Shown one piece after another: positions 7,181-47,935 of a stretch of DNA of 64,000 nucleotides. Under the pieces are notes generated by a model that saw only the letters and a list, made by a program, of their open reading frames with translations, searched no databases and had not been told where the DNA came from. A program made the translations under genes and the position numbers. Each line of letters opens with the position of its first letter. Position 1 is the stretch's first letter. The stretch is from Verrucomicrobiia bacterium (lineage in GTDB: Bacteria; Verrucomicrobiota; Verrucomicrobiia; Opitutales; Cerasicoccaceae), in the NCBI GenBank assembly GCA_030432235.1, contig JAUIHT010000006.1:310001-374000 (forward strand), given 5' to 3'.

Positions 7181-7181
7181 A

Positions 7182-7898
7182 ATGAACCTTCTGTCGAAAA
7201 ATTGCCCATCATTTCTGACTGCTGTTTGTCTGTTAGCAGTGGTTCTGACGAGCCAGGCCAGCGAGGAAATTTTCCGCGCTAATCTCCGTTTCTTCAATCC
7301 CATCACTGACACCCGTGATCTGTTTTTCATGAGCAAGGGAGAAGACCGTGAAATTCGCTGCACTTTCAGTGGTCCCTCTGGGCGCTATCACTACGAAGGC
7401 CCGACTGGTCGTCTGCAGTTATATCGGATGAGTGGGACGGGCGAGTCGGCACAACGTATGCCAGTGGCCTCATTAACCCTGCCAGCGACAGGAGAGGATT
7501 ACCTTGTCTTCATGCTCCCGGACCGGAACTTGGGCACAGAAGGCTTTCTAACGCGTGTCTTCAACGACAACATTCAGCTTCTTTCAAAAGGCAATACGCG
7601 CATCTATAACCTATTGCCGAACACCATTGCGGTGAAGTACGGCGAGCAGGAGATGATCATCGAAAAAGGTTCCTCGAAAACGGTGAACAACCGCGAGGCG
7701 ATGGCTCGGGACAGCAAGGAATCTTCGGACACAGACTATCAGCATTTGGATATGCCTGTCCATGTTGTGGTCAGAAATACAGAGGGTTGGAAAGTCGTAT
7801 ACCGCTCGGTGTGGTATCCCATTATAGAAGCCCGCCATCAGGTATTCGTCATCCCGGAAAACAAAGGCGCTGTGCGCGTCGTCCAGATCACAGACTGA
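7182..7898 (+). CDS. Small secreted partner of the pseudopilin-like protein
   Basis: About 238 residues from the ATG at 7182, one base after the stop of the giant pseudopilin gene; a start at 7164 inside that gene is possible but puts six extra residues before the signal peptide (LLAVVLTSQAS). No named domain is recognised. The protein is homologous to the product at 40152-40853: RIYNLLPNTIAVKYG corresponds to YRFVNLTQERIAVALG, and VVYRSVWYPIIEARHQVFVI to LVFSTNWAVNPNVRYLVLI. In both loci it directly follows the giant protein and overlaps or abuts its conserved FRWLNE(S/D)EI end, so the two probably act together at the envelope. Confidence 0.7.
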   Translation: MNLLSKNCPSFLTAVCLLAVVLTSQASEEIFRANLRFFNPITDTRDLFFMSKGEDREIRCTFSGPSGRYHYEGPTGRLQLYRMSGTGESAQRMPVASLTLPATGEDYLVFMLPDRNLGTEGFLTRVFNDNIQLLSKGNTRIYNLLPNTIAVKYGEQEMIIEKGSSKTVNNREAMARDSKESSDTDYQHLDMPVHVVVRNTEGWKVVYRSVWYPIIEARHQVFVIPENKGAVRVVQITD

Positions 7899-15873: not shown

Positions 15874-15941
15874 TTTTTAAGCTTTTGATTATCACTTTCA
15901 AAAATCACTCCCCCACGAGCACATCATCACAATCCCTCCCC

Positions 15942-16952
15942 ATGCCTCACAAGATACTCCTATTTCGAAACTTTATATGTCTCTTTGCGATTCCCTTGTT
16001 TGGGATTGCCGGTCACATAAATGCCCGTGAAGAACCGGGAACAAAAACCAAGGAGCCCGCCTGGGATGACACCTCCTCAGACAAGTGGAAAGGGTTTCAA
16101 GAAGTCGAAATCCCCTCAACAGCCGATGGGCAATTACAGTCGGCCTATTTTCTACCGGCTGAATCTAAAGCCCCTTTACTAATAAGCCTACACACTTGGT
16201 CTGGAGACTACAGTCAGAGGGATCCCATCGCGCCCATAGCCCAGGATGCAGGCTGGAATTATATCCACCCTAATTTTCGAGGGATGAATAACACACCCGA
16301 TTCGACCCTCAGCTCCAAAGCCTTGGCTGACATCGAAGATGCCATCCAGTATGCAATCGACCATGGGAATGTCGACATGGACAACATCTTTATCGTTGGC
16401 ACTTCGGGCGGCGGATACGCGACGCTGGGCGCCTATATGCATACCAAGCACCCGGTAAAGGCCTACATGGCCTGGGTGCCGATCAGCGATATCGAAGCCT
16501 GGTATTACCAGTCGTTAGTCCGGAATAAGAAATACGCACGCCACATTCTCAAAAGCACCTCTAAGGGAGGTGAGCTGAACGTCGAAGAAGCCCGCTCGCG
16601 CTCCCCTCTCTACTTCGCTATGCCGAAGGTCTCCAAGGGAAAGCTGGAAATCCATGCCGGCATTAATGATGGCTACACCGGCAGCGTACCCACCTCACAA
16701 TCCATTCTCTTTTTCAACCGCCTGGCCCGTGAATACGGCCATGAAGATGCCGTTGTCAGCGAGGCGGATATCATCAAGATTCTGAGCAGGGGCCTGAAGC
16801 CCGACCCCGCGCTTGGCACACTGGGCGACCGTACGATCCTCTTTCAGCGTGAAACTCCGGAGGTCAGCCTGACCATTTTTGACGGAGGCCATGAGATGTT
16901 GCCCGAATACTGTTTTGAGCGAATAACGGTCTTGGCAAAGCAAGTGGATTAA
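15942..16952 (+). CDS. Secreted alpha/beta hydrolase (esterase or S9-like peptidase fold)
   Basis: I chose the ATG at 15942 because it gives a clean signal peptide (LLFRNFICLFAIPLFGIAG, cleavage near HINA); an upstream GTG at 15867 would lie inside the operator. The protein is 336 residues. It shows the nucleophile motif GTSGGG, a later Asp (GINDGYTGSVP) and the catalytic His (DGGHEM), the complete triad of the prolyl-oligopeptidase/acetyl-xylan-esterase type of alpha/beta hydrolases. In a sulfatase and TRAP context, removal of acyl groups from a polysaccharide is the likeliest role, but a peptidase is not excluded. It heads a run of genes through the TRAP transporter to the sulfatase at 19843. 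Confidence 0.8.
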   Translation: MPHKILLFRNFICLFAIPLFGIAGHINAREEPGTKTKEPAWDDTSSDKWKGFQEVEIPSTADGQLQSAYFLPAESKAPLLISLHTWSGDYSQRDPIAPIAQDAGWNYIHPNFRGMNNTPDSTLSSKALADIEDAIQYAIDHGNVDMDNIFIVGTSGGGYATLGAYMHTKHPVKAYMAWVPISDIEAWYYQSLVRNKKYARHILKSTSKGGELNVEEARSRSPLYFAMPKVSKGKLEIHAGINDGYTGSVPTSQSILFFNRLAREYGHEDAVVSEADIIKILSRGLKPDPALGTLGDRTILFQRETPEVSLTIFDGGHEMLPEYCFERITVLAKQVD

Positions 16953-33343: not shown

Positions 33344-34111
33344 TTACCTCTTATAGAATGCAATACCGGCCGTGGGCTCAGTGACATATTCCCATTCGCC
33401 ACTGAGCTTACCAATCGTCGGCTCCTGCAAGGTATAGCTGATTTCGGGTATGACGCCTTCACCCTGAATACCGTCGGATGAATCGAAGCGATCGAGCAGT
33501 AACGTGGCTAGATTCGGCTCTGGCCGGGTGTTTTTGAGCGCTTCCTTATCTTTGGCGACCATCGAAAGCTTAATGGCATTTAGAATAATGCGGGAATCGC
33601 CATCGCTGCCATCCTTTCTATAGCCAAAGATTAGATCCACTTTTTCCAAAGATCCCCAGAAGCCTTTTCCGTAAGTCTTGGAGCCACGCAGCTCGCCGTC
33701 TACATAGAGCCATAGCGTTTTGCCTTTCCAAACATAAGCGATGTGGTGCATCTCGCCTTTCTTCCAGTCTGGTGCAGGCTCACTACCCATGATACCACCG
33801 CCCCCGAACTCCGAATCCCTGGAGTGCGACGATATTTTCAGCCCAATCTGTCGCTTATGGCGATACCAAACAGACTGGATGGTCCATTCCCCGGGTATGC
33901 TTAAACGAAAGACATCAAAGACATTATAATATTTCCCGTCATCGGGTGGGTACAACTCGTCAGCCATGGGAGTAAGCCACACCTCCAAGGTCCCCTCATT
34001 GAGTTCCATATTGCCGGCTGCCGGGTAAGAAAGCTTGCCGCCGTAGGTAAAAGCAGAGGTCAACAGACCAAAAACGATGAAGAATACTTTCCGATTCTGC
34101 TTATTAAACAT
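33344..34111 (-). CDS. Secreted concanavalin A-like lectin domain protein
   Basis: About 255 residues from the ATG at 34111, chosen because it starts right before the signal peptide (VFFIVFGLLTSAFTYGG); ATGs at 34117 and 34138 are alternatives. One LamG/concanavalin A-like domain fills the protein: NMELNEGTLEVWLTP, GEMHHIAYVWKGKTLWLYVDGEL, then VDLIFGYRKDG. Such domains bind glycans, or act as small accessory enzymes. It is the second gene behind operator D, about 67 bp after the large CBM9-type protein. Confidence 0.7.
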   Translation of the reverse strand: MFNKQNRKVFFIVFGLLTSAFTYGGKLSYPAAGNMELNEGTLEVWLTPMADELYPPDDGKYYNVFDVFRLSIPGEWTIQSVWYRHKRQIGLKISSHSRDSEFGGGGIMGSEPAPDWKKGEMHHIAYVWKGKTLWLYVDGELRGSKTYGKGFWGSLEKVDLIFGYRKDGSDGDSRIILNAIKLSMVAKDKEALKNTRPEPNLATLLLDRFDSSDGIQGEGVIPEISYTLQEPTIGKLSGEWEYVTEPTAGIAFYKR

Positions 34112-34178
34112 GGGCATGAGGGATGCGTTGAGATTCAAAACTGGACTATAAATATAGGAAAAAGGCTGCGCAAGCTAG

Positions 34179-37100
34179 TTACCCTTCCACACTCTCGCTC
34201 AAGGGCTTCTTTGAGGATACACGCAGGAGGCGATAACGTTCCGGCAGAATGTCGAGATTAACGACACCGTCCGTCATCTCAATCGTCTCCAGGGTGACAC
34301 CGTCGATGACTTCGATATCCTCACCGAGCGCCTTGCCGACTACTGAATTACGCAGGTCCACAGTAACGCCTTCGATGGGTTTCTTATCCAGATTAGTCAC
34401 CACAACGACAGCCCGTTCTTTATCATCACTGATAAATGCGCTACTTAGCAGAGCCTCATCGGATACAGGCACCGCCTGGTAGTGGCCGGCTTCGTTTTCG
34501 TAGTAATAGTGGGATGTCTGGCTCCCATCCATCGGAACCCAGTCAAAGGTATCCCAATATGCATAGAGCGGGCGCTTGGCCCAATCATAGCTCCGGTAAC
34601 GCCCCACGGGCAGGAGGGTATACTCCTTCGCATAGGTGCCATGCAAAAGCGTAACCGCTGAATGCGTGCTGACGCGCATCGGCAAATCCTCCCAGTCATT
34701 AATTTCACCTGAGTAGAGATTGCCAAAGGGCTCGGCGGAATACTCAGAACGAAACTCCTCAAAGGGCATCCAGGATTCGCGGAGGGACTGCGCATACATT
34801 GGGCGACCTTCACCACGGTTCTGAATGTCTGCGTAGATGTTGATAGGCCACATGCTACCGGTGTGGTTGTAGATTATGCCGTCTTCGACAACTTCACCAT
34901 GGTATATTGAGTAAACGCGGCGATATAACTCCCGGGTGGCGAGAACACCGTATTTCGGACGCGTACGCCCCTCCGAATCAACCCATGCATTGCCAATACG
35001 TGCGTTCTGGTCCTGCTGGAGATTAGCCGTGGAGTCCCAGAGCACGCCGTCGGCCCCATACTCCTTTGCAATATCGGCATGCCCCCAAGCCATAAAGTCG
35101 ACGTAGGCACCATTTTCACCGGCCGACTGTGCGTAGGCGCCCCACCCTTTATTCTCGATGGGATACTTGCCTAGCTCGTAAGAAAAATCCTGCCAGTTCT
35201 TGCTGCTGGCATTTACTCCCCACCCGGTATAGAGTATGGCTTTCATACCATACTTATGAGCGAGCTCGATGCCCTTTTTGAGCTTTTCACGTTGCTCCGG
35301 TTCAACGGGGCGCTCCGGCGTGCCACCCAACTCGGTGGTGGAATTGCCGCGCCAACTGTAATAGAAGACAAAGACCTTGCCACCAAGTTCAGCAACACGT
35401 TTGAACACTTCCTCGTCTGTTACAACGCCAAGTTTCTGATAAATATTTAAGATGCCGCGATCCTTGGGTGTCTCACGAATGGGCGTCGCCTGCAACCCGA
35501 ACTGTAGCCGCATAGGCTTGTCCAGACTTATCGGCTTCTGAATGATATGGGCGAGTAACTCACCACCTTTGCCATTCTGCGGGGGCAGGGTTTCAAGGAC
35601 AGCGTTGGGTTTGTCGATTGACCAGTCTATAGGAGCTTCGGCGATGAAGCCCATGCCTGCAGTCTCGTTGCCGATCCACAAATAAGGCGTAAAGGGTATC
35701 TTGGCATGCTCCAGGAAGCCGGGGGCTCCATTGAGTTCAGGCTCCGGTACTTTGGATTGAATCAATGGATCTACCAAAAATTTGTGGCGGCCCATTAATT
35801 CACACAGCTCGGGATTCACCTGGATGCCCAGCGACATGGATTCGATATCAACCGGAGCGTCTGTCGGCGCCAGTTCCAGATCATACCAGAGCAGGCCATC
35901 AAACTCAGCCCGCAGGGTGCCGCTCAGCTCAAGACCTTTCGCGCTAAGGGTAACATCATAAGTAACGCCACCATCGGAGGATTCGATTGCCTCCATTTTG
36001 GTCACTTTCCAATCGACGGAGCCACTGCCGGTCTGTGCCTGGAGCGTGACTGGAGCCGAAAGCACTTCGACACCATTGCTAACGACCGATGCCGGGAAGA
36101 CGGTGCTCAAGTCATAATCACGTCCCCAGACTTGGAAATCGCCTGGAGTCTCCGCGACTACCGGGGTCCATGGTCCGGGAACTTCAATCTGGTTCCCCTT
36201 TTCATTCTTGAACCAGGGCGGTGTAGCCGGACGTTCTACCGGAGTGATATTTGTGGCCAGCAATTCACCATTGGGAAGGAAGTATTCAGCTTTCACTCGG
36301 TAAAAGCCAGCTTCGAGGTCTTTAACAGGCAATTCCAGTTTGACTTCATCATCGCCAGCATCAACGGACTGTGAGACTTCCGAAATGACGGGTTGCTGGG
36401 ATTCGGCCGGGATTAGGCTCACTTTGAGAACACCGCCTTCAGACGCATCCAGAGCTTTCGTGTCCGCAAACACATCAATAACCTGCGAGTAGAGCCAATA
36501 GGGCTCCAGACTCAGTGAGAGAGGTGGGACAATCTCAAATACAGACGCCCCTGACGCCAATACTTGATCGTTACCAGTGGTTACCCGATACTGTACCAAA
36601 TATTCACCCAGCGGTAAATCAGATCCGAAGCCAAATGTTTTACGTACCCCCTTTGAGACCTCAATGGTTTCAGTTGCTTCAGCGCCGCCTTCTACTGGTT
36701 GATACTGCTCTTCAGCGAATTCTATCATGGCGATCAGACTCGCGTTCTTTGCAAACTCAACTTGCGAATCATGGCTGACGCCACTTTCGATATTATCGTA
36801 ATAACTTTTTATGGTGGAATCGCTGGTATCACGGCCGGAAACACTTATTTGCGTCTTAATGCCGAAAAGATCACTGGTGCCATTAGCCACTGAAAAGCCG
36901 ATGCCGTGCTGGCCGTTGGGCAACTTACCTACGGTGTTGAGCTGAACCGCCGGGACTTTGGCAAAGCGAATGCGCCCGAAGTTCCAGAACTGATGCCAGA
37001 TGTTTCCCCGGTAGGACCAGTATGCGACCTGCGTAAAAGGGGTGCGCCGATTATCGACGAAATCGAATCCCCACCATTCCATTGGGCTGGGAGGGCCATC

Positions 37101-37679
37101 TAATCCGAAGGCTTTGAACGGGATGGCTATTTCCCCCTCCCAGCCAGTGTCGGTCAAGCGGACTGCTTTCTCCCAATCCGCATCCCAGTCATTATCTTTA
37201 TTTGGATCACAGTGGGCATCGCCAAAAGCTCCGTTTCCGAAGATGATGAAATCATACGTATCGTAAAAGTCCAACTCTGGGGCGAGCAGGATTTCAACCG
37301 CATCGATATTACCAAAACTCGGGCTTTGGAGGCGCCCTTCTTCGTTGGGAGTAGCCGGATGCGGTGTTTCCTTCGGACGGTTGATGCTGAAAGCCAAGTA
37401 AATATTCCTATCATCATAACCCAGACGGATTGTATGGTCATACTCGCTTATCAATCCCTGTTTACCAGACAACAGCGGACCGACTTTAGCGGCTGCCAGC
37501 CACTCATTGAGCGAAACAGTGCCATCAATAGAAGGGGCTGTTGACAGATATGGGATAGTCCATTCGGGGGTACGCTTCCATTGCAGCTCACCCGCATCTT
37601 TCGCAGGGTCGTTAGCCTTAAGTGTCGCACTGCATAGGCAAACGAGAGCCAAGGCACTAAGAAATTTGCCATTCATCAT
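34179..37679 (-). CDS. Large secreted CBM9-like plus TIM-barrel (DUF6067-like) protein
   Basis: A 1166-residue protein with a signal peptide (LSALALVCLCSATLKAN). The N-terminal ~220 residues resemble carbohydrate-binding module family 9 (APSIDGTVSLNEWLAAA, IRLGYDDRNIYLAFSI, WEGEIAIPFKAFGL). After beta-rich linkers, residues about 730-1070 form a glycoside-hydrolase-like barrel: KVFVFYYSWRGN, YGMKAILYTGWGV, and KEYGADGVLWDST, followed by a domain of the DUF6067 type. The WDST acid could be catalytic, but no activity is established. Operator D is 29 bp before the start, so LacI-type repression would block transcription directly. Confidence 0.7.
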   Translation of the reverse strand: MMNGKFLSALALVCLCSATLKANDPAKDAGELQWKRTPEWTIPYLSTAPSIDGTVSLNEWLAAAKVGPLLSGKQGLISEYDHTIRLGYDDRNIYLAFSINRPKETPHPATPNEEGRLQSPSFGNIDAVEILLAPELDFYDTYDFIIFGNGAFGDAHCDPNKDNDWDADWEKAVRLTDTGWEGEIAIPFKAFGLDGPPSPMEWWGFDFVDNRRTPFTQVAYWSYRGNIWHQFWNFGRIRFAKVPAVQLNTVGKLPNGQHGIGFSVANGTSDLFGIKTQISVSGRDTSDSTIKSYYDNIESGVSHDSQVEFAKNASLIAMIEFAEEQYQPVEGGAEATETIEVSKGVRKTFGFGSDLPLGEYLVQYRVTTGNDQVLASGASVFEIVPPLSLSLEPYWLYSQVIDVFADTKALDASEGGVLKVSLIPAESQQPVISEVSQSVDAGDDEVKLELPVKDLEAGFYRVKAEYFLPNGELLATNITPVERPATPPWFKNEKGNQIEVPGPWTPVVAETPGDFQVWGRDYDLSTVFPASVVSNGVEVLSAPVTLQAQTGSGSVDWKVTKMEAIESSDGGVTYDVTLSAKGLELSGTLRAEFDGLLWYDLELAPTDAPVDIESMSLGIQVNPELCELMGRHKFLVDPLIQSKVPEPELNGAPGFLEHAKIPFTPYLWIGNETAGMGFIAEAPIDWSIDKPNAVLETLPPQNGKGGELLAHIIQKPISLDKPMRLQFGLQATPIRETPKDRGILNIYQKLGVVTDEEVFKRVAELGGKVFVFYYSWRGNSTTELGGTPERPVEPEQREKLKKGIELAHKYGMKAILYTGWGVNASSKNWQDFSYELGKYPIENKGWGAYAQSAGENGAYVDFMAWGHADIAKEYGADGVLWDSTANLQQDQNARIGNAWVDSEGRTRPKYGVLATRELYRRVYSIYHGEVVEDGIIYNHTGSMWPINIYADIQNRGEGRPMYAQSLRESWMPFEEFRSEYSAEPFGNLYSGEINDWEDLPMRVSTHSAVTLLHGTYAKEYTLLPVGRYRSYDWAKRPLYAYWDTFDWVPMDGSQTSHYYYENEAGHYQAVPVSDEALLSSAFISDDKERAVVVVTNLDKKPIEGVTVDLRNSVVGKALGEDIEVIDGVTLETIEMTDGVVNLDILPERYRLLRVSSKKPLSESVEG

Positions 37680-37757: not shown

Positions 37758-38981
37758 TCACAATAAACCGGATAGCCGAAGCTCGTGCATCCGCTCACAG
37801 GCTTCATTCTCTTTTTCCAGGCGGGTTGGATCGAGACCAAGCTCGAGCTCTGGTTGCATGAATATCGCCAAAGCTGACCAGCCCCAGAAAGGCCGTTTAC
37901 CACAGCCGACGCCCGATTCCGCAGTGTAATATTCACTAAAGGTGGAGCGATTGAATAGTTGGAAAGTTTTATCCGCCAAGGTTTGCGCGGCCTCTGTCAT
38001 ACCGTAACGACGCAACCCCTGATACGTAATATAGTTGGTAGGCACCCAGGTATTGCCACGCCATGAACAGCACGCGGTGCTTTCATCAGGTAGAAAGCCT
38101 TCCACATAAGTCGGCTCACTGGCTGACAACGCCGGCAAGGGCCAAGGACGCCAGAATTCAGCAGGGTTCAAGAGATGCTCGTCGACGAGTCGCTTGGCTT
38201 GCTCAGGCGACGGTACCCCCGCCCAGAGTGAAGAGAACGCACTGACGCATTTTATTGGAATGGGACGCTTTTCTTTGATATGCCAATCGTAGAACATACC
38301 GTCCTCTTCATTCCAAAGGTGACGTCGCATGGCCACAGCCAGGCCTTCACTGTCTTGACGCAGCATGGTGGCGTCTTCATCCTGGCCGAGAATTTCCGCC
38401 AGAAGTGACAGGGCAAAGCTCTCTCGAACCAAGTAGCTATTGAGATCCGTACCCGCACAGAATAGATTGGGCCCCTCAAAAGCCCCTGCTCGCTCGTAGA
38501 GATTGTCCATACCCGTCTGGCCCGTACTGTACCAGATGCTAAGGTTGGTTTCCTCGTCACGATAACGACCGCGCCAACAAGCGTAATACTTCACCAGCCT
38601 TTCCCATAGTCCCTCCTCGAGCAGCCACTCGGAATGACCGGTTATGTGCTGGCAGATCAACAGTATTTGCCCGAGGAATGGCTTTATCATCGTGCGGTGC
38701 TTAGGGTGAATGCCTCCAGGATAGCCTAGGTTAAATGCGCGCCCAATGAAGCCGTCCTCCTCCTGACGACTCAAAAAAATGCGTACGCCGTTCTTCAGGT
38801 ACTCGGGAGGCCAGCCGGTATACCCCAGGAGGATGCCTTCAAAATACTGATCCCAGTCATACAGAGAGTTATCCGCATAGCCGGTAAAATACGGACGCGT
38901 AGGTAGAAAGCTGCGTACGCCCTGTGGAAGGATGCCGTAGAAATAAGTAATCAGCGCTTGTCGGTATGAGTCCGGCTTCAT
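37758..38981 (-). CDS. Cytoplasmic (alpha/alpha)6-barrel glycosidase, trehalase/GH63-like
   Basis: A 407-residue protein without a signal peptide. Its motifs resemble the clan G-type (alpha/alpha)6-barrel glycosidases: ADNSLYDWDQYFEGILL, IWYSTGQTGMDNLYER with the candidate acid Asp, and near the end CCSWRGNTWVPTNYITYQGL followed by EYYTAESGVGCGKRPFWGW. These correspond to the W-D-x-x-F, G(M/W)D and GWSALA features of trehalase, GH63 and mannosylglycerate-hydrolase-like enzymes. It starts one base after the stop of the propeller gene and is the last gene of the GH4 operon, so it should act on imported oligosaccharides. Confidence 0.75.
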   Translation of the reverse strand: MKPDSYRQALITYFYGILPQGVRSFLPTRPYFTGYADNSLYDWDQYFEGILLGYTGWPPEYLKNGVRIFLSRQEEDGFIGRAFNLGYPGGIHPKHRTMIKPFLGQILLICQHITGHSEWLLEEGLWERLVKYYACWRGRYRDEETNLSIWYSTGQTGMDNLYERAGAFEGPNLFCAGTDLNSYLVRESFALSLLAEILGQDEDATMLRQDSEGLAVAMRRHLWNEEDGMFYDWHIKEKRPIPIKCVSAFSSLWAGVPSPEQAKRLVDEHLLNPAEFWRPWPLPALSASEPTYVEGFLPDESTACCSWRGNTWVPTNYITYQGLRRYGMTEAAQTLADKTFQLFNRSTFSEYYTAESGVGCGKRPFWGWSALAIFMQPELELGLDPTRLEKENEACERMHELRLSGLL

Positions 38982-38982
38982 A

Positions 38983-40137
38983 TCAGGTAATAAAGTCCTC
39001 CAGTAGATACATTTGCAGGCGTGTCCCGCGGTTGTTTACATTGATTAACAGACTTTTGCTATCCGGAGACCAAACCGGGTGTAGATTGGCACGCGTGATA
39101 GTGTGTGGCTGATAAGTCTCGCCAAGGCGTGTATAGTGGTCAAAGCGGGCGATTTCCATACAGCGCCCCGTTGCGAGTTCAATGACATAAAACGGGCAAA
39201 CCTGCCCGTTCGCCGTGTATGCATCAAGAGCTAGATATTTGCCATTGGGAGAGACAACAGGATGCGCCGGCCCCTCAATAGGAAAATCTATCAATCTCTC
39301 TACGTCAGCGGTGACCGCGTCCTGAAGGACAAGCCAGCGATTGTCCGAACCATCCAGCGGCTGCATGATATTAATGATCTGTCGCCCGCTTGGCATCCAC
39401 TGAGGATGTCCAGATATTCTATGACCGTGAGCAATGAAGTTCCTCTCTCTCAGATCTAATGTGAAAAAGCCTCCCCATATAGCCACTTGGCTGTCTCTCT
39501 TACGCCCTGTTCTGGGACGGACTAGCTTGAAGAAGGCCATCGATTCGTCCGCATTGGCGACTAAGTGATGGACTTCCCATGGACACTCCAGATCTACCAT
39601 CTCCGGTATCAGATGCTCAGACGCTTCACCGGGTGTAAACAGTTCCTCGATCTCTCCCTTAACAAAATCGATGCGCATCGCTACACATTCACTGTTTTCT
39701 TTTGCGGATGACTTCGCATTGTCGGCAAAGTCGCCATAGCCGTGACGCCCATTTGTCGAAACGCAGCGAACATGAAGCCCTTCGTAAAAATGAGCGCTCC
39801 CCCCGCCCTTGGCAACATCTGTGACTACTGCGCCCTTACAACCGTTTCGGATGTCATCATAGACGATCTTGGTTCCATCCATACACCACTGCTGATAAGC
39901 CGCTGTGTGATAGTCGTACTTTTGTGATGTGCCGATTATTCGGTTATTACCTGTGGCCAAGTCTCGCACCACAATCTCAGCTTGCTGACCCACTTCCTCA
40001 AAACCGGCGTAGAGCAGGCTGGTACCATTCGGATTCCATGGCGAAAGCCCCTGATAGGCATGCAGCGAGTGCTTATAAGGCGTCTCCAAGAGTGTGACAC
40101 GGGCCTTATTAAATGGGTTTGGATGGCGGCAACTCAT
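38983..40137 (-). CDS. Cytoplasmic beta-propeller protein, PL22 (oligogalacturonate lyase)-like
   Basis: A 384-residue protein without a signal peptide. Repeated TolB/WD-like blades are visible (GLSPWNPNGTSLLYAGF, YQQWCMDGTKIVYDD, HPQWMPSGRQIINI, HPVVSPNGKYLALDAYT, HPVWSPDSKSLLINVN). Several blades carry His in positions that in the PL22 family bind Mn2+ (candidate His in CPWEVHHLVAN and ISGHPQWMP). An intracellular lyase that breaks unsaturated or uronate-containing oligosaccharides would fit with TRAP uptake, but family membership is tentative. It lies 14 bp after the pseudopilin partner and one base before the barrel enzyme, in the GH4 operon. Confidence 0.65.
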   Translation of the reverse strand: MSCRHPNPFNKARVTLLETPYKHSLHAYQGLSPWNPNGTSLLYAGFEEVGQQAEIVVRDLATGNNRIIGTSQKYDYHTAAYQQWCMDGTKIVYDDIRNGCKGAVVTDVAKGGGSAHFYEGLHVRCVSTNGRHGYGDFADNAKSSAKENSECVAMRIDFVKGEIEELFTPGEASEHLIPEMVDLECPWEVHHLVANADESMAFFKLVRPRTGRKRDSQVAIWGGFFTLDLRERNFIAHGHRISGHPQWMPSGRQIINIMQPLDGSDNRWLVLQDAVTADVERLIDFPIEGPAHPVVSPNGKYLALDAYTANGQVCPFYVIELATGRCMEIARFDHYTRLGETYQPHTITRANLHPVWSPDSKSLLINVNNRGTRLQMYLLEDFIT

Positions 40138-40151
40138 GTTATGAAAAGTAA

Positions 40152-40853
40152 TCAGGTATCTTTAAACACTTCGCGAATGCGCTTCACCTTATAACCTTTA
40201 TCCTTGTCCTGATAAATGAGAACTAAGTAGCGGACATTCGGGTTAACAGCCCAATTAGTCGAAAAAACCAATTTCCATTCATCACGATTATCCTCTGCCG
40301 CCAGCTTGACGGAAATCGAGGTGGATCGAGTTTCTTCCGTCATAGGGATTACCGTGGTACGGCCACTAAGTACGAGATTTCGCTCCTGGCCAAGTGCTAC
40401 CGCAATGCGCTCCTGGGTAAGGTTTACAAATCGATAAGCACCCCAACTGAAATCATTTTCATCGTCGGCATATACTCGTACATGATACTTACCTTTTTCC
40501 CCGGGACTGGGTAAAAACAACATCGATACTTCGGAAGCTCCCTGGGGGATGTGGGCCTTCGCGATAGCGACCGGTCGCATAATGCCCTCGGCATCCGGTA
40601 TGTCCCTGAGAAAAGTCATCGGGGTACGGCCTCGATATGTATACTCCCGGGAGAATACACTGGTAGTCAATTTTACTGGGCAACGAATATCACCAACATT
40701 GTAGTAAATATCGTCAACCTGCTCAGGCATGCTCAGGCCCTTAAACTTGATTGAGACAAGAGTTTCGTCATCGGCCATAACATAGCTGCCAAGGCAAAGG
40801 CCACCGAGGAAGAACAGGCTCCAACTGCACAAAAGCTTATATCTCATCTTCAT
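40152..40853 (-). CDS. Small secreted partner of the island pseudopilin
   Basis: About 233 residues from the ATG at 40853, which overlaps the last 17 bases of the giant pseudopilin gene; the ATG at 40847 is an alternative, while longer readings lack a signal peptide. The signal peptide is LLCSWSLFFLGGLCLGSYVMA. The protein is homologous to the product at 7182-7898 (shared segments FVNLTQERIAVALG, WKLVFSTNWAVNPNVRYLVLI). The same overlap with FRWLNEDEI as in the backbone pair makes a coupled two-gene unit. Function is unknown; partnership with the pseudopilin is an inference from conserved synteny. Confidence 0.7.
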   Translation of the reverse strand: MKMRYKLLCSWSLFFLGGLCLGSYVMADDETLVSIKFKGLSMPEQVDDIYYNVGDIRCPVKLTTSVFSREYTYRGRTPMTFLRDIPDAEGIMRPVAIAKAHIPQGASEVSMLFLPSPGEKGKYHVRVYADDENDFSWGAYRFVNLTQERIAVALGQERNLVLSGRTTVIPMTEETRSTSISVKLAAEDNRDEWKLVFSTNWAVNPNVRYLVLIYQDKDKGYKVKRIREVFKDT

Positions 40854-43800
40854 TGAGCCACCTGAAAGAAACCACCTCGAATCGGCGGCCAAAAAGTTTA
40901 TTATCCTCAGCCAACTCGTTATTGGATATCCACGCACTGTGGGCCTGAGCCTGGCTGCTAACCGATGTATCCGCCCAATCACCATCTTCATCTTCATTTT
41001 TTATGAACTCAGGCATGCGCTGAACGACCACCTCGCACCAGGCTTTGGCGCGGGCCTTATTCGTGAAAGGATCGGTGGCCTCCCCATAGGCGCGAATGAG
41101 AAAAGTATCAGATCGCACCGTCATCAAGGGCCCATAAATCCGCAGGATATCGTTCTGTGAAATCCACCCGGGAATTCCCGCCGCCTGTGCTGCTGTCGTG
41201 TTGTTAATAAAAGCCCCATTAGCTCCATACAAGGACGTCGGCTCACCACTCTCTGTCACCGTCTTGGAAAACAGACCATCATTATTCGTCGTTGAGTTAT
41301 CGATTGCCGCTTGCAGGGCGCCACGCAATCCTAGTTCACCATCCACAAGCCTCCGATTAACAAAGTCTGCCATCGAAGGAAAAGGACCACGTTTCTTGAC
41401 TTCTTCGACAATACTTTCCGCCAACTCTGTCAGTTCCGCGTCATTCAGGCTACGAAAGCCGCGCCATTGCCAACCACTACCGCTGTTCGACGCACGCGGA
41501 GCACCAAAACGCGAAATCGGCGCATCCAAATCGTCATTGCTAATCGTTTGCGTGCCGCTAGTAACTGAATCGATGACTAATGTCTGCCCATCGGCAAAAG
41601 CAGTACCTCCAAGAAACGCTTTCCAAGCTGCCACTGAAGTAGAATTAACATTAAATGCCCCATCTACCATGAGGCGAGAGGCTGACGTGGTGAGTGCCTC
41701 AGAGCCTTGAAGTCTATCTAGTGTATCCTCCGTCGTCTCACTGCCATAAGAGAAATACTTTATGGCACTATTAGGCAATGGTTTTCCTGCCTCAAGGAAG
41801 TCTACATCGACTGCCTCAAAGGGAGGTAGTTTTTCTCTTAAATTCTGATAAGCGCTATTCTGCGCCTGGCGGTAGTCCGGCGGAACCGTTGAAAAGAAAT
41901 AGCGATCGAACAGTTCCATGTTTAGCAGATACGAATAGTCGGCGAAGACATAATCGTTATCACTCGAGCTATCCAGACGATCAATGGATTTGAAGTCGCT
42001 TACGGTATCAAGAGGGATGTAAGGCGATGCGTAAGAGTTGCCAATCGCATACGCTGGCATGGTATCGTAGAAGGAGAGATTGGCATGCATCAGTGAGCCG
42101 ACCGATTGCAGAGGCTGACGAGGTACATCGAAAAGAATGACTTGGGTTTCGGAGTTAAACGTCGAATCCTTCCCCCAATAGGCGTAGGACCCGTTCGTGG
42201 ATGGATTAAGGATGTCATCGGTGCCGCCGACTGGATACTCCTCACCTCCCTCGTAGAGATGATGTTCGTAAAATTGACCAAACAGGGTCTCAGGAAAGGG
42301 GGATTCCAAGCGGGAATAAAGCCGGTTAGCTACCATACGACGTGGTGAAAACTGGCTAATAACCGGAACACCATCTACTTCAAAGTTGGTCCCTTTAAGG
42401 CGCCAATCCATAATCATCAGCTTCTGTGCCGCAGTAACCCGAGGGGGCGAAGCAGTAGTAGCTGTGATTGCAGAACCTCCAATGGGGAACGCAAATAAAC
42501 CACCCCGCTTATCGATAAAGTCACTTGTCTCATCAAAGAATTTGGCATTGTTCAATCCACCGCCGACATCCACCTCTGTGCTCTTGCTCTTGGACGACAA
42601 TGCGCTTTCATCGAGCATGCTCAGATTAAAGTCAATCTGGCTGCCCCCCCACTGCTGCAAAGAGTCTTTTGCAGAAACATAAAATTTAAAATAGTAGGTT
42701 TTGTCCGGCGAGGCTAAGTAAGTACCGGGGTCGACTGAATCTGGTTCAAAAGTAACCTCGATAGGCGGTATTTCGATGCGAGCACTGCCATTCTGGAACC
42801 GATTCTGTTCATTGGTCTGATACAGTTCAACAAAGACTCCCGAATCTAATGATGCGCCTTCAGTTAGAATAATGTCCCCGCTGGACAAAGCATCATCATC
42901 CCCCCCCCCTGAAAGACCGAATATCTTAATATCGCCGGGCCCGAATTCCGCCTGTGAAATCAAAAAATTCATATCTAGGCCTTTTTCCACGCCCCCAAAG
43001 AAGGATGTGCTGGTCTGAGCCCTCGGATCGAAAGATTCTGTGGAGGCCTTCGTGGCAGTCCCCCAGGCATTTTCATTTATCAAGGCATCGAGCGGATAAC
43101 CGCGGAGGCGAGCATTACTGTAAAAATTCGTACTTTTACCGGGTACACTCGCAGCACCATTGAGAATGGAATTAGCCGAGCCGACGGGATCTATGCTATT
43201 AGACTCACCATAGACCGGGGTATCCCAAATTTGTACCTGCATGTGAGGTTCAATGGTAAGCCGGTAATCCTTAACTGTAAGCTTAACGTTATAAGGATTC
43301 CAAAGCACAACAGCCGGATAAAAATGCAGGCGCACACCGTAATAGCGTGTTTCCTTACCATCAATGATCTGACGCGGTGCCCTTTCAAAAGTACTGATAC
43401 CAAAACCCAGTTGAGCCCTTACCATGACAGGCGTTAGGGCATTCCACAGGGGTTCGCGGCGAAAGCTATCCGTATGCTGCAGACCGCGATCCAAATCTAT
43501 CGTTTTCGGCAAGCCAAACCAGTTGCCACGAAATACACGATGGTTACTGAATTCAGGCGTCGGAATGAAAAAGCCACTGTCATTTAATTGAGGTCTATCA
43601 TTGATTCCGCCAGCCGGGCCGGCCCCACGCGGCTCAATTTCCGGGGATAGATCCGTCACATCGGAAATATTATCGTGATTATCTGTCGACTCAGCATACC
43701 CCAGAAAACGATAATTTAACTCGTTGTTGCCAACACCAACAATCATTTCAGGATAGAGTGCAAAGTTGGGTTTATAAAGATTGTAGTATTGATATAAGAT

Positions 43801-44943
43801 ATCCCAATAAGGCCCCCAAATGCCGTTAGTGTCGGCAGACAGTTTATACTGATTGCTGGTAATGCTGAAACCATCTGGCCAGTCGGTTTTGAAAATGGAC
43901 TGTGGTTCAGGCCAGCCCGTTTCAGAATCGCCAGAAGTCCAATTAGCCGAATCGGGCTCGAGTTTTTGGAGGAACTGTTGCCACTGGTCATCAAGACCTC
44001 GAGTTAAGTCCAACTTCAAACCACCATGCAGCGTATCGCTGAGTACCCCTGCACTGTGATACGTTAAATTGAGAATATGCTTTTTGGAAAAGGCCTCGGC
44101 TTCATCGACAGGCAATTGGTCAGAGACCAGGCTTTGGAAACTACCCTCAGTTTGTATCCGCTCGATCATTGAGCTGTTGATGGGCAATAGGGTCGTGAGA
44201 ACATCCTCTTCATCTTTATCGATCACTGCAGGATTCGTCTTCCGTGCCGACATAAGGGGAAGGGCTTGCTTCAGCCGCTCTTGAGCACTGTTGGATGTGG
44301 CTATCTCCTGACTACGGTCCCGCGTGTTGACTTTGGCCTTAACACCTTCATCGGAAACCCACCAAGCATACTTGCCGGAGATGGCTCCATCTATCGTAGC
44401 ATTCACTAAGCCAGCCTCGATATCCTGGTAATCGTCGTTTTCCCAATAGCGAAAAACTGGTTGAGTATTAGTCAGCTCTTGAGTGGGGTCGATATCTGTC
44501 CCTTCTTCGTGGGAAATCAACCAAGTTAGATTCGTACTACCCGCATCTTCCGTTGTGCTGCTGATATTTCCAGTCACGGGATCGCGGTCAAGCTCACTGT
44601 CACTATAATCGAGAAGATTATCCTCTTCGACTTCCCAAACCCCCGTCCAGAAACGATTTTCGGGAAGCACATTGATCCGCGTATCCAAGATTTCCGCTCG
44701 AGCAGTAACCCGCTGATCATGACCGGCAGCCCGCTGAAGCTCTCCCAAGGCCTTAAATACGCCAAGTCTGGCATTTTCCCGGGCCTGCTGCCGATAAATA
44801 TTCTGCGCAGATGTTCCCAATTCTACACTGCTGTAAAGAGATAAACTTAAGAGTACCAGCAGCACGAAGCCCATCAGCAACATCGCAACAATCAGAGCGA
44901 AGCCAGGGTGCTCACGGGGCATCGATTTAAGGGGTACGCGCAT
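40837..44943 (-). CDS. Giant prepilin-type protein, Verru_Chthon cassette protein A-like (island copy)
   Basis: About 1368 residues from the ATG at 44943, which gives a short leader MRVPLKSMPREHPG before the prepilin helix FALIVAMLLMGFVLLVLLSL; an ATG at 44991 is also open, and 44922 is a third choice. Blocks shared with the backbone copy: DQRVTARAEIL, SDEGVKAKVN, LTRGLDDQ, VVLWNPYNVKL, PGDIKIFGL, PRQPLQSVGSLMHAN, FNVNSTSVAAWKA, DFVNRRLVDG, SDTFLIRAYG and FRWLNEDEI. Unusually it sits between the GH4 gene and intracellular glycan enzymes, under the same operator (E), so a pseudopilin-like structure is co-expressed with catabolism. Confidence 0.8.
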   Translation of the reverse strand: MRVPLKSMPREHPGFALIVAMLLMGFVLLVLLSLSLYSSVELGTSAQNIYRQQARENARLGVFKALGELQRAAGHDQRVTARAEILDTRINVLPENRFWTGVWEVEEDNLLDYSDSELDRDPVTGNISSTTEDAGSTNLTWLISHEEGTDIDPTQELTNTQPVFRYWENDDYQDIEAGLVNATIDGAISGKYAWWVSDEGVKAKVNTRDRSQEIATSNSAQERLKQALPLMSARKTNPAVIDKDEEDVLTTLLPINSSMIERIQTEGSFQSLVSDQLPVDEAEAFSKKHILNLTYHSAGVLSDTLHGGLKLDLTRGLDDQWQQFLQKLEPDSANWTSGDSETGWPEPQSIFKTDWPDGFSITSNQYKLSADTNGIWGPYWDILYQYYNLYKPNFALYPEMIVGVGNNELNYRFLGYAESTDNHDNISDVTDLSPEIEPRGAGPAGGINDRPQLNDSGFFIPTPEFSNHRVFRGNWFGLPKTIDLDRGLQHTDSFRREPLWNALTPVMVRAQLGFGISTFERAPRQIIDGKETRYYGVRLHFYPAVVLWNPYNVKLTVKDYRLTIEPHMQVQIWDTPVYGESNSIDPVGSANSILNGAASVPGKSTNFYSNARLRGYPLDALINENAWGTATKASTESFDPRAQTSTSFFGGVEKGLDMNFLISQAEFGPGDIKIFGLSGGGDDDALSSGDIILTEGASLDSGVFVELYQTNEQNRFQNGSARIEIPPIEVTFEPDSVDPGTYLASPDKTYYFKFYVSAKDSLQQWGGSQIDFNLSMLDESALSSKSKSTEVDVGGGLNNAKFFDETSDFIDKRGGLFAFPIGGSAITATTASPPRVTAAQKLMIMDWRLKGTNFEVDGVPVISQFSPRRMVANRLYSRLESPFPETLFGQFYEHHLYEGGEEYPVGGTDDILNPSTNGSYAYWGKDSTFNSETQVILFDVPRQPLQSVGSLMHANLSFYDTMPAYAIGNSYASPYIPLDTVSDFKSIDRLDSSSDNDYVFADYSYLLNMELFDRYFFSTVPPDYRQAQNSAYQNLREKLPPFEAVDVDFLEAGKPLPNSAIKYFSYGSETTEDTLDRLQGSEALTTSASRLMVDGAFNVNSTSVAAWKAFLGGTAFADGQTLVIDSVTSGTQTISNDDLDAPISRFGAPRASNSGSGWQWRGFRSLNDAELTELAESIVEEVKKRGPFPSMADFVNRRLVDGELGLRGALQAAIDNSTTNNDGLFSKTVTESGEPTSLYGANGAFINNTTAAQAAGIPGWISQNDILRIYGPLMTVRSDTFLIRAYGEATDPFTNKARAKAWCEVVVQRMPEFIKNEDEDGDWADTSVSSQAQAHSAWISNNELAEDNKLFGRRFEVVSFRWLNEDEI

Positions 44944-45052
44944 AGGGGTTGTACACGCTTCAAATTTTGCAACGACCACCACATCTGTCAAATCTGCTAC
45001 TCATGGCGGGGTACTGTTATACTAAAAGAGGTGAAGAACCAGTAGACATTAT

Positions 45053-46453
45053 TTATATAACATTTGACGTCAACTTTGCTTGGGGCATAGAAATTTTCGA
45101 AGGAAAAAACTGCGGCAGTAGCCCGCGATTGGCTTGCAATAACTCATTGAGCATAGCTTCGATTTCACGAGGATCGTTATTATTATTTAGGGGATCACTT
45201 AGCATGGCTTGTAGAACCTTACAGCGATCACCTTCAATGGCTCCGGCCACAGTCAATTCCTGATTCAAAACATGCTTATGCGTTAGGGTGAGCAGCGAAT
45301 CGGGCAGCGAGCCACAGGAATGGGCGGTAATGCTATCCCGATCAATAGTAGCCATTGTTTCAACCGTGGCACCGCTCGGCAAATTCTCGATCTGCCCAAC
45401 ATTCGGCAAAACAACAGGCTGGATTGTCGACGGACCACCTAGCAGAGCGGAGAGGATGGGCGCAAGTTGCTCCGATGAGGGCTCAGGGGGCACAGAGTCT
45501 GCGCTCTCCGAGCACCATATATCTATCTTCTCCTTAAAGCGTTTGAGCCAAGGGCCGCGACGATCCTCAATCGTCGTCAAACGAATATCGAAATCGCGAC
45601 CGTAACCGGTTTTTTCACTGATGAAATAAGGGAAAAATTCAGAGATATGTCTGTCGCCTGGATAAGGCATGTAGCCATAACGGTCAAATAGCCAAATCTT
45701 GGCACGATCACCCGATAAAGCATCCGAGCCGTTCCCCAGGCCGTTTTTACCCGGATCCAGAGAGCTCATTTTCCTCAATTCAGGCAAGCGCTGGCGAAGC
45801 ATCTCCAGTCCATCCTCACCCCTAATCCGCAAGCGAGTAATCCAGGCAAAGTGGTTTACTCCTGCTATAGTCGCGCACACCTCGCTTCTCCAGTCTTCAA
45901 GATTGAAGAGCTTCTGTAGTTTAGCCATGAAGCCCATATATTCATGGCAAAGGCCCACGACTTTAATGTTTGTCGATAAATCAATCGCCCGGACTATCTG
46001 GCACATTGGATTGCTCAAGTTGAGCAACCAAGCATCAGGACAAAGCTCCTCCATCCAGCGGGCGATAGCTACAACGACAGGAACGTTTCGCAAGGTGCGG
46101 CTAATACCACCAGGTCCAGTGGAATCGCCCACAGGTTGCTTGATCCCGTATTTTTCAGGAATGGCTATATCGTGAGCCATCGCCTCCAGACCGCCGGTCG
46201 ATATACATAAAATCACTGCGGCAGCACCATGCAGTGCACTATCTAGCTTATCTTCCGTTTCGACTACGATATCAGCCCCTACTTTCTCGTTGATAATTCG
46301 ACATACCTCGGCGAGTTCGTGATTCCTCTCTGGTACAATGTCGTGAAGGACAAACGTCGAAGACTGCAAGTGTGGATTGACCGCAATATCTCTAAAGAGT
46401 GTGGGCACCCACTGATAACTTCCACCGCCGATGAATACTATTTTCTGGCTCAT
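45053..46453 (-). CDS. NAD-dependent GH4 glycosidase
   Basis: A 466-residue cytoplasmic enzyme of glycoside hydrolase family 4, which cleaves by transient oxidation at C3 using NAD+ and a Mn2+ ion. The Rossmann motif is VFIGGGSYQWVPTLFRD; metal and substrate motifs are LLNLSNPM, GLCHEYMGFM and GVNHFAWI. The CHE variant differs from the CHS of typical alpha-galactosidases; alpha-glucuronidase or alpha-galactosidase activity are both possible, so the substrate is left open. It is the first gene of a five-gene operon (GH4, pseudopilin, partner, PL22-like, barrel enzyme) with LacI-type operator E about 103 bp before its start. Confidence 0.9.
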   Translation of the reverse strand: MSQKIVFIGGGSYQWVPTLFRDIAVNPHLQSSTFVLHDIVPERNHELAEVCRIINEKVGADIVVETEDKLDSALHGAAAVILCISTGGLEAMAHDIAIPEKYGIKQPVGDSTGPGGISRTLRNVPVVVAIARWMEELCPDAWLLNLSNPMCQIVRAIDLSTNIKVVGLCHEYMGFMAKLQKLFNLEDWRSEVCATIAGVNHFAWITRLRIRGEDGLEMLRQRLPELRKMSSLDPGKNGLGNGSDALSGDRAKIWLFDRYGYMPYPGDRHISEFFPYFISEKTGYGRDFDIRLTTIEDRRGPWLKRFKEKIDIWCSESADSVPPEPSSEQLAPILSALLGGPSTIQPVVLPNVGQIENLPSGATVETMATIDRDSITAHSCGSLPDSLLTLTHKHVLNQELTVAGAIEGDRCKVLQAMLSDPLNNNNDPREIEAMLNELLQANRGLLPQFFPSKISMPQAKLTSNVI

Positions 46454-46837
46454 ATAAAAAGTTAGGATTTGGCACTGCTGCTGATACTGCCCGTAGGGTT
46501 TTGCGGGAAATTGATCCCTACATTGGCCAAATAGACGGGAAGATCAATCCCAAAATGTACACGTGTTCATTTTTGCGGCGATTTCACCCTACTGGGTAGC
46601 CATACATCAAAAACAATCGAGCCTGATGCGGTCTGCACTCCAAAACCAAAGCCGTATGCATCTCCCCTTCCTAGTGATGTTACAGAGCAAGGACTTAACA
46701 CATCGAATGAAAAGCAGGTCTCATCGGGCTGACATTCCCACCAAAACGCCGACAGCAATCTATTTGCGCGGCGAACAGCAGGACGCAGAAAAAAGATGCG
46801 CCTAATGCATGAGAAATTAAACTGTAGTCGGTTTCAG
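46454..46837. promoter_or_regulatory. Control region of the GH4 operon, with LacI-type operator E at 46556-46569
   Basis: TGTACACGTGTTCA at 46556-46569 is a perfect match to the palindrome and is followed by the ATTTTT flank seen also at sites A and B. It lies between the GH4 gene and the lacI-family gene, which reads in the same direction. The rest of this 384-bp stretch holds no convincing gene. Confidence 0.7.
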
Positions 46838-47935
46838 CTAAGATTTCTTCTTTTTCTTTTTAACCTGTTGGGCTCCACAGGAAACCCGCTGTATAAGTCG
46901 GAACGGAATCGTTTCTCGTATAAATTTAGAACTAGTATTTTTACCCTCGATTCTGTCGATAAGCACCTCCACAGCCCTTTGGCCCATCAGGAAATTTGGC
47001 TGTTCCACCGTAGTCAGTGGGGGTTTGGTATAGCGAGTTATCATAGCGTTATCGTACCCGATTAAGGCCATGTCATCAGGCACCTTCAAACCAGCCATAT
47101 CCAAAGCACTCATAGCGCCTATAGCAGTATCGTCGGAAGCGCATACCAATGCGGTAGGCGGGGGATTGCGGCGTAATATCTCACGCGTTGCCCAGAATCC
47201 AGGGGCATAGTCCATGTCCGTAGTTTCCAAACTTTCCACATAATCAACCTTATCCTTTCCCATGATGCTGGGCGTAGCATAAACAAGGTAATTAGGTTCA
47301 AAAGGAATTCCCGCTACTTCTAACGCCTTCATATACCCCTGCTCTCGCATCTGGATAAAACGGGATGAGCGCGGCATAAATAAAATTAGGCCTATTCGCG
47401 TATGGCCACGCTCAATAAAATATCGAGTCATGTGCTCAAAAGCCGAAGCGGTATCAAGCAAGACGCAATCACACTCGAAATTGTGGATTGGATAGATGGA
47501 AACAATCTGGTTACCTGTTTTTTGATAGGCCTTAAAGTGCTCGGCAGGCTGACAAAAACCAAGCCCCATGACAATAATACCATCTACCCCATGAGACTGC
47601 AGATGGAATATGCCTTTTTCATCGCTTTCACGGGAACCGTCACTGTAAGAAATAATAACCGAATACCCAAGATTCTCCGCGGTTTTATAAATACCATCCA
47701 GTTTGATGCTGTTTGACTGGCGTATACGGGCAGGCCCTAGTATCCCTATAGTCCGACTACGACCAAACTTCAAACTTTGAGCAGCGCGATTCGGAATGTA
47801 GCTGATTGATTTCAACTCCTTTTCCACGCGTTCTCTCGTCTTTTTACTCACCAGAGGTGAATTATTTAACACGCGATGTACGGTCCCACGGCTAACGCCC
47901 AGCCTATCCGCTATCTCTTGTTGTTTCAGTCTCAC
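46838..47935 (-). CDS. LacI-family transcription regulator of the island cargo
   Basis: A 365-residue LacI/GalR protein. The N-terminal helix-turn-helix is QEIADRLGVSRGTVHRVLNN, followed by a hinge helix (NRAAQSLKFGRS) and a periplasmic-binding-protein-like effector domain (DGIIVMGLGF, ALVCASDDTAIGAMSAL, ALIGYDNAMITRYTKPPLTTVEQP). The C-terminus is an odd run of lysines (VKKKKKKS). LacI proteins bind palindromes with a central CG, and such a palindrome recurs upstream of cargo genes (sites A-E) and in weaker form upstream of this gene, so I infer local control and autoregulation. The inducer is probably a breakdown product of the target glycan. Confidence 0.93.
   Translation of the reverse strand: MRLKQQEIADRLGVSRGTVHRVLNNSPLVSKKTRERVEKELKSISYIPNRAAQSLKFGRSRTIGILGPARIRQSNSIKLDGIYKTAENLGYSVIISYSDGSRESDEKGIFHLQSHGVDGIIVMGLGFCQPAEHFKAYQKTGNQIVSIYPIHNFECDCVLLDTASAFEHMTRYFIERGHTRIGLILFMPRSSRFIQMREQGYMKALEVAGIPFEPNYLVYATPSIMGKDKVDYVESLETTDMDYAPGFWATREILRRNPPPTALVCASDDTAIGAMSALDMAGLKVPDDMALIGYDNAMITRYTKPPLTTVEQPNFLMGQRAVEVLIDRIEGKNTSSKFIRETIPFRLIQRVSCGAQQVKKKKKKS

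Follow-up and report, generated by a model that had tools for sequence, protein, structure and literature searches.

In a 64,000-nucleotide stretch of a Verrucomicrobiia genome from the Opitutales (assembly GCA_030432235.1, contig JAUIHT010000006.1, positions 310,001 to 374,000; hereafter the window, with its own numbering), we have explored an operon of sugar-degrading enzymes that also encodes a giant prepilin and a small secreted partner. Our analysis places this giant in a large paralogous family, with 35 giants in the genome and a partner gene at every locus, and the fold computed for a paralogue in the window is that of the minor pseudopilin GspK. An earlier note on this DNA had proposed one dedicated structure for one operon, amounting to a new type of uptake or secretion system; the family of 35 replaces the first idea and, as for the second, the protein appears to be a GspK-like tip subunit rather than a whole new system. 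The approximately 35 giants with their partners, mostly near genes for the degradation of sugar polymers, suggest swappable filament tips matched to different foods. Accordingly, the reading that we tentatively favour is that the giant pair is a sugar-regulated, exchangeable filament tip that captures the glycan of its own locus, with the partner as adaptor. In what follows, L, G and C numbers are our handles for loci, genomes and contigs.

The giant prepilin, its partner and their paralogues

The focal operon, its regulator and the genes that continue the run are as follows, with lengths in nucleotides (nt) or amino acids (aa):

46838..47935, reverse strand: LacI-family regulator (PF00356, E 3.2e-13; PF13377, E 1.7e-33), the first gene upstream of the operon
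46552..46573: LacI-type palindromic operator AAAATGTACACGTGTTCATTTT, a near-perfect palindrome 98 nt ahead of the GH4 start
45053..46453, reverse strand: GH4 family glycosidase (PF02056, E 1.5e-48; PF11975, E 4.5e-36)
40837..44943, reverse strand: giant GspK-like prepilin of 1361-1368 aa, likely start ATG 44922 or 44943
40152..40853, reverse strand: partner protein, a secreted tandem beta-sandwich, likely start ATG 40853
38983..40137, reverse strand: TolB/PL22-like beta-propeller (TIGR02800, E 2.1e-8; PF14583, E 0.0015, below its cut-off)
37758..38981, reverse strand: MGH1-like (alpha/alpha)6 glycosidase (PF22422, E 8.9e-39)
34179..37679, reverse strand: GH123-like protein with a weak CBM9 match and a signal-peptide-like start (PF19543, E 1.9e-7), downstream of the five genes
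33344..34138, reverse strand: LamG/concanavalin-like protein (PF13385, E 3.4e-7), the last gene in the run

The five genes that the earlier note had described as closely packed on one strand behind a LacI-type operator (GH4, giant prepilin, partner, propeller and glycosidase) are all present in that arrangement. Its "PL22-like propeller" stands as a propeller of the TolB type (E 2.1e-8) with a weaker PL22 label, the PL22 match reaching 17.8 bits where the cut-off is 30. The partner's ATG at 40853 overlaps the stop of the giant (40837) by 17 nt, and 14 nt separate the partner from the propeller; a 281-aa partner open reading frame (ORF) beginning at 40997 was rejected as too long and the start corrected to ATG 40853. 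For the giant, the ORF list opens at TTG 44991, as against the likely ATG at 44922 or 44943, and the leader reads ...MPREHPG/FALIVAMLLMGF, the slash marking the prepilin junction. A candidate promoter for the pilin, a sigma-70-like match (10/12), lies at 44991-44964; such sites are no commoner than in shuffled sequence (15 versus 17.0).

A single freak gene is ruled out by the 35 genomic copies. A genome search followed by ORF analysis of the window and of fetched stretches, each about 16-20 kb long, yielded 35 giant prepilin ORFs of 1014-1384 aa; at L031 the stretch ends within the ORF. The junction G/F is invariant in 34/34 aligned paralogues (L031 left out, its start being cut), which argues that it is not there by chance; a narrower prepilin motif matched 31 of the 35, and residue +5 is V, I, L, A or T, never Glu, in the 34 intact N-termini. 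A profile search with the partner found it at 35/35 giant loci, directly downstream in 32 of them, the exceptions having it upstream on the same strand (L029), divergent upstream (L034) or about 6.7 kb upstream (L019), and genome-wide there are 36 partner matches. With starts picked by rule, pilin and partner overlap in 20 of the 32 downstream cases, the largest overlap (-65) being doubtful. The distances among pilins correlate with those among partners (Mantel r 0.65, reached by 0/5000 permutations, 34 pairs), so pilin and partner have been inherited jointly, as one unit.

Small secreted proteins with PEP-CTERM-like tails are frequent beside the pairs (L018, L020, L024, L030, L035, L040, L041, L043, L044, L046 and others), and at six loci (L071, L084, L099, L129, L134, L219) two partner matches stand in tandem behind one giant pilin. 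Similar transposase-like gene remnants, recognised by eye, follow the partner at two pilin loci (window 8201-9255; L023 12369-13465).

The giant that was modelled belongs to another pair in the window, which the earlier note does not mention:

3593..7180, forward strand: second giant GspK-like prepilin of the window (the modelled copy)
7164..7898, forward strand: partner of the second giant prepilin

Structural alignment of this model with VIA-align returned three chains, XcpX (5vtm_X, Z 12.0, 220 of 259 residues), 9a1f_T (Z 11.5, 255/295) and GspK (3ci0_K, Z 11.1, 237/280); GspK chains were covered to about 85% each and the next-ranked chain reached only Z 4.7. The computation on this paralogue thus identifies the giant, as modelled, as a minor pseudopilin of GspK fold, whose GspK parts lie at the N- and C-terminal ends with about 850 extra residues between them. 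A profile-profile comparison with 18 GspK sequences from the same class found both ends in order, the N-terminal helix at E 5e-6 (probability 86%) and the last strand region, at the expected C-terminal place, at E 0.0023. Seven related giants were scored with the curated GspK model of NCBIfam, six reaching 13-23 bits and one having no match, and a PDB sequence search with the giant returned nothing. The partner was modelled as a tandem beta-sandwich (pLDDT 91). Its top structural match is the ectodomain of the mammalian peptide transporters PepT1/PepT2 (Z up to 13.8), and AlgF domains also match (Z 9.0 and 9.5); a PDB search with the partner profile gave two matches, the better at E 0.25, neither usable. 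We do not accept kinship with PepT1/PepT2 and take the likeness as that of a common tandem beta-sandwich arrangement.

Across the family, the extra residues vary most, although three close pairs give a mixed picture. Mean pairwise identity is 0.14-0.21 in the middle (about 320-780) versus 0.40-0.50 at the ends, and in the close pairs L046/L047 and L021/L023 the insert is the part of lowest identity. A further kind of variation occurs in the genus g27, where a full giant gene and an inverted copy truncated at the N-terminus can stand head to head:

L256 4806-11984 (G051): head-to-head full and truncated giant copies
L257 4360-11879 (G042): head-to-head full and truncated giant copies
L259 5950-13126 (G129): head-to-head full and truncated giant copies

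At L256, DNA arms of 97% (1.96 kb) and 83% (0.58 kb) identity accompany insert residues 601-750 at only 36-40%, and at L259 the arms are of 96 and 79% identity; at both loci the stretch between the arms does not align, and the forward copy of L259 is split into two frames. The two L257 copies agree to 99.6% over 3.1 kb and would leave nothing to exchange. Compared with two other g27 species, the full copy of L256 has 38-41% identity at residues 601-700, 55-78% at 401-600 and 701-800, and 77-98% elsewhere. This layout would fit a recombination that swaps the insert, and it suggests that the insert is the part of the giant that is exposed and under selection. The partner was not detected at E 10 in four g27 stretches.

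Sugar-gene setting and spread of the pairs

The focal operon occurs twice in the genome. On contig C20 (L016), LacI, GH4, pilin, partner, propeller and glycosidase follow in unchanged order, with one extra sulfatase between LacI and GH4, and identities to the focal genes of 76% (LacI), 77% (GH4), 57% (pilin), 50% (partner), 61% (propeller) and 72% (glycosidase). The earlier note had assigned the pair to the glycan operon and had named absence from other copies of the operon as the finding that would tell against this; since the second, syntenic copy retains both pilin and partner, the pair does belong to it. The focal operator pattern was not found at L016 within 3 mismatches; about 150 nt ahead of the GH4 gene, that locus has a less strict palindrome that shares the CACGTG centre. 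When the 18-nt core of the focal operator was searched at up to 2 mismatches, the genome held a single further site (window 15858-15875). This second operator copy (15856-15877, 2 mismatches) sits between a sulfatase (14426-15799, reverse strand) and an S9/esterase-like gene (15867-16952, forward strand), which suggests that the same LacI regulator may also control these two flanking genes.

The same setting recurs around the family as a whole. LacI genes lie within 10 kb of 20/35 giant pilins as against 6.35 expected from circular shifts (11 of 10,000 shifts reach the observed number), and sulfatases within 20 kb of 21/35 as against 9.1 (14 of 5000 shifts), the latter from 76 sulfatase positions after two pieces of one gene were merged and one match below the cut-off was dropped. 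Among 137 near neighbours, LacI (14 matches) and sulfatase (7) are the commonest families, and many glycosidase and carbohydrate-esterase families occur once to a few times each. These neighbours are the two genes on each side of the pairs; they include two partner genes (L029, L034), lack 3 of 140 positions where the stretch had no gene or was too short, and were called mechanically by frame length, so that some are spurious and some begin too early. In the own-genome control, LacI accounts for at most 1 of 64 genes, as it does not appear among the 25 commonest families listed. The control stretches (16 in this genome, 11 in G063) were hand-picked at round coordinates rather than drawn at random, and their scans cover the 25 commonest families only, which may hide single sugar enzymes. 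Around the pairs there is an excess of LacI regulators, glycosidases, esterases and sulfatases. In 27/35 pairs, a further gene besides the partner, in some cases no sugar gene, lies on the same strand within 200 nt; L029, whose close neighbour is the partner itself, and L034, whose gap runs from a different gene, are not counted.

The other genome in which neighbours were scanned, G063, repeats part of this picture. Around 12 of its partner places, the 48 neighbours include LacI 3 times, GH5 and GH16 twice each, and one rhamnosidase and one lyase, whereas the control of 44 genes listed no LacI or glycosidase among its 25 commonest families; SASA esterases are alike in both (2/48 and 2/44). G063 holds 19 partner matches (18 genes) and 3 sulfatases, which makes the "sulfated glycan" of the earlier note too narrow a substrate. 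Conversely, G053 and G099, with 168 and 139 first-look sulfatase candidates, are outside the 15 of 115 genomes with a partner match. In each genome, no more than 24 partner and 18 sulfatase candidates went into the scoring, which makes the larger counts lower bounds. A tight link to sulfated glycans is therefore weakened, and another solution may exist in the two sulfatase-rich genomes.

Beyond this genome, the pilin-partner pair recurs patchily in Verrucomicrobiota and in Kiritimatiellota records. In a search of 19 genomes, this one among them, a pilin relative occurs in 16, including all nine other genomes of the same family, and the partner in 15, with 2-30 copies in the other same-family genomes and 0-1 outside the family; a wider sample of the phylum gave a partner match in 15 of 115 genomes. 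A scan of named genomes returned at least 568 coding stretches, in Opitutales, Verrucomicrobiales and Kiritimatiellota records, with Cerasicoccus, Luteolibacter, Haloferula, Roseibacillus and Coraliomargarita among the genera. The best 79 of these loci were retained for a partner check with frames taken mechanically. A partner was matched at 76 of them: at 75 it follows the pilin directly, with gaps of up to 158 nt, and at one (L133) it is 4.7 kb away; three had no match (L066, L135, L127 (contig ends there)). In nine genomes of the same family, ten stretches chosen for their best or high-ranking pilins gave no match to the focal GH4, propeller or glycosidase. By eye, these stretches carry mostly other sugar genes (mannosidase-like in G006 and G008, sulfatases in G002), and in G003 (L213) the pair is followed by fatty-acid-type genes.

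Possible function of the pair

The genome contains machinery that could carry such tips: seven full T2SSE-type ATPase matches and three shorter ones, five secretins, and two operons of the type 2 secretion system (T2SS) kind (L166, L167), recognised from gene order and N-termini. These two operons have their own GspK, which matches the GspK model below its cut-off; therefore the giants are additional to, and do not replace, an ordinary GspK. Assembly of the giants could fall to these operons and to further type IV filament genes of the cell. A motif search of up to six genes on each side of the giants (fewer near stretch ends) matched five neighbours, of which two, three to four genes away, were judged to be PulG-like prepilins (L035, L041), none of them at the focal operon.

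In the favoured reading, LacI-type control would have the pair made together with the sugar enzymes in the presence of that sugar. The two ends of the giant would make up the tip subunit of a filament, either of type 2 secretion or of type IV, and the secreted beta-sandwich partner would bind the giant as chaperone, adaptor or extension. The standing T2SS or type IV pilus machinery would build the filament and carry the pair at its tip, where the variable insert would recognise the polymer of the locus and help to bring it to or through the envelope. The fold (on a paralogue), the pairing and joint inheritance, the nearness to sugar genes, the copy number and the variability of the insert come from the computed results, whereas induction, placement at a tip, binding between pilin and partner, glycan recognition and the direction of transport are inferred. 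Uptake is weakly favoured over export because the GH4, the propeller and the MGH1-like glycosidase have no signal peptide by eye.

Several results weigh against this reading. GspK-type tips are known from secretion and are not known to serve in uptake. The modelled giant is the window's second copy and not the focal protein; the model, built from 77 sequences, has a mean pLDDT of 76 and a pTM of 0.84 with much of the insert below 60, and when searched with Foldseek it gave GspK third at E 0.38 and nothing at E 0.001. At the sequence level, the C-terminal profile match to GspK has a probability of only 12.6%, the focal giant scores 17 bits with the curated GspK model against a cut-off of 130, and the GspK profile retained 18 of 29 extracted sequences, this genome's own GspK (L191) being among the 11 dropped, some of which were antisense frames and some of which had a different C-terminal end. 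Structural alignment recognised no carbohydrate-binding fold in the insert (best Z 4.7), and no minor pilin genes (I, J) were seen at the focal locus. Between the focal pilin and its closest paralogue, that of L016, residues 101-300 (48%) are less conserved than insert residues 501-700 (51%). Across genomes, pair copy number does not track sulfatase number. Finally, two single-copy genomes (L175, L176) hold the pair among mostly housekeeping, non-sugar genes, the nearest two sugar-enzyme-like genes by eye at L176 being at least 7 kb away; because of these, the pair may predate its use in sugar loci.

The main rival explanation, which we consider unlikely, retains the filament tip and reverses the traffic: the giant GspK would be a cargo-selecting tip of the T2SS, each copy with its partner priming export of the enzymes of its own locus. 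GspK is indeed the T2SS tip fold, two T2SS-type operons with their own GspK are in the genome and the GH123-like protein downstream in the operon has a signal-peptide-like start. Against this, the want of an evident signal peptide in the GH4, the propeller and the glycosidase leaves the downstream genes as the sole local cargo, and the enzyme sets adjoining the pairs are highly varied.

It is improbable, in our judgement, that no filament is involved at all, the pilin helix serving as an inner-membrane anchor only and the pair as a periplasmic polysaccharide scaffold or store. Such a role would agree with the lack of other pilin genes seen adjoining in the focal operon, with the partner being a secreted beta-sandwich protein and with the periplasmic glycan accumulation reported for Verrucomicrobiota (PMC13174399; here and below, cited papers are drawn on in part), yet a mere anchor would need neither the prepilin junction invariant in 34/34 nor the full GspK pilin fold. 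We also hold it hardly probable that the pair is a housekeeping minor pilin cassette without substrate-specific role, multiplied into sugar loci that often recombine and duplicate: the single-copy genomes with the pair outside clear sugar loci, the duplication of whole operons, the uncoupling of copy number from sulfatases and the fatty-acid-type genes seen by eye beside the L213 pair speak for it, whereas open frames with a partner at 35/35 loci, close same-strand neighbours in 27/35 pairs, the LacI enrichment around the giants and the sugar genes found again in G063 speak against it.

If the reading of the pair as an exchangeable glycan-capturing tip is extended to the phylum, Verrucomicrobiota that live on many polysaccharides would fit dozens of exchangeable giant tips to one common filament machine. 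Every tip, with a dedicated partner, would be induced together with the sugar operon to which it belongs and would recognise and take in one specific polymer, and in some relatives the recognition domain may also be swapped, through recombination, with a silent inverted copy. We regard this extended picture as rather doubtful; if true, it would amount to "one tip per glycan", in parallel to the SusCD pairs found in Bacteroidota. The mechanisms of polysaccharide uptake in aquatic Akkermansiaceae have been called largely understudied (PMC13174399), and the giant tip-pilin family is a concrete candidate for how Verrucomicrobiota catch or import large polysaccharides. The giants would also represent a possible new role for GspK-type subunits, and the pair may serve to mark sugar loci in poorly annotated genomes.

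Comparison with known systems

The closest known relatives of the giants are GspK and XcpX (PDB 3ci0, 5vtm), with which they share a prepilin junction without Glu at +5, the fold over about 85% of the chain (Z 11-12) and a sequence profile that matches both ends, the C-terminal one weakly. There are clear differences. GspK has about 300 aa and is encoded in the gsp operon, whereas the giants have 1014-1384 aa, carry a large variable insert, are accompanied by a partner gene, fall below the curated GspK cut-off and exist in about 35 copies, mostly in sugar loci.

A second protein of similar size is the Verru_Chthon cassette protein A (TIGR02600), whose N-terminal 74 columns are homologous to those of the giants (97% probability), with weak C-terminal homology (24% probability), and which is multi-copy in the two genomes above its cut-off, out of 115 genomes of the phylum. 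The focal giant scores 10.2 bits against this cut-off of 332, and in five candidates of the same genome scored with the model the match was limited to the first 60 or so positions. Verru_Chthon A cassettes are defined by four genes, with further prepilins (B, C, D); the focal giant has none adjoining. In G084, three further prepilins were found at L156-L158 and two at L159 and L160; in G096, one was found at 2 of 5 loci (L161, L165). A partner match was absent from all ten Verru_Chthon cassette stretches. Score and gene set thus rule out that the giant is cassette protein A.

In architecture, the giants resemble the modular pilins, such as PilB and PilC of Streptococcus sanguinis and CofB, in which a bulky module on a pilin module is presented at the tip and often binds, GspK itself being named as an example with an inserted domain (PMC8179133). 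The model and the variability profile likewise point to a pilin module plus a bulky non-pilin module in the giants. The difference, as far as that description goes, is that the insert of the giants lies within a GspK-type pilin, is much larger, has been amplified about 35-fold and is tied to catabolic operons and a partner.

Two further accounts concern the same phylum. In MUL2 of the Akkermansiaceae, one four-gene locus comprises a pilin-like protein, PilM and two uncharacterised genes (PMC13174399); as described there, type IV-like filament genes are linked to glycan attachment and uptake, in a single locus, as against a subunit repeated across sugar operons in the case of the giants. A locus at window 62476-64000 and beyond (L170 6476-13609) encodes a TPR-secretin of 922 aa, proteins of 316 and 330 aa, a PilM of 545 aa and a protein of 213 aa. 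Its genes follow the order described for MUL2 (secretin, two small proteins, PilM, pilin-like), which the focal operon does not, but two of its proteins, when searched, matched no solved structure at E 0.1. It lies about 15 kb from the focal operon and is adjoined by an Ig/propeller protein of 1834 aa (56900-62404).

Verruconatronum alginivorum, also of the Opitutales, has 67 homologues of a pseudopilin, one of them in an alginate-induced gene cluster; another pseudopilin was over-expressed when the cells grew on alginate, with one replicate per treatment. The proteins are called pulG-like, and export of alginate lyases by a T2SS was suggested (PMC13274419). The portion of that account on which we draw mentions neither giant size, nor a partner, nor a GspK fold, and the comparison is one of descriptions only. 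Among the papers listed by our searches, which cover few subscription papers or preprints, none was seen to describe giant pilins of GspK type that come with a partner and lie in sugar operons. As far as these sources go, the multiplication of pseudopilins in Opitutales, the over-expression of a pseudopilin on alginate, modular pilins and a pilus-linked glycan system are known already, and what our results add is a giant GspK-like pilin that, together with its partner, resides in sugar operons.

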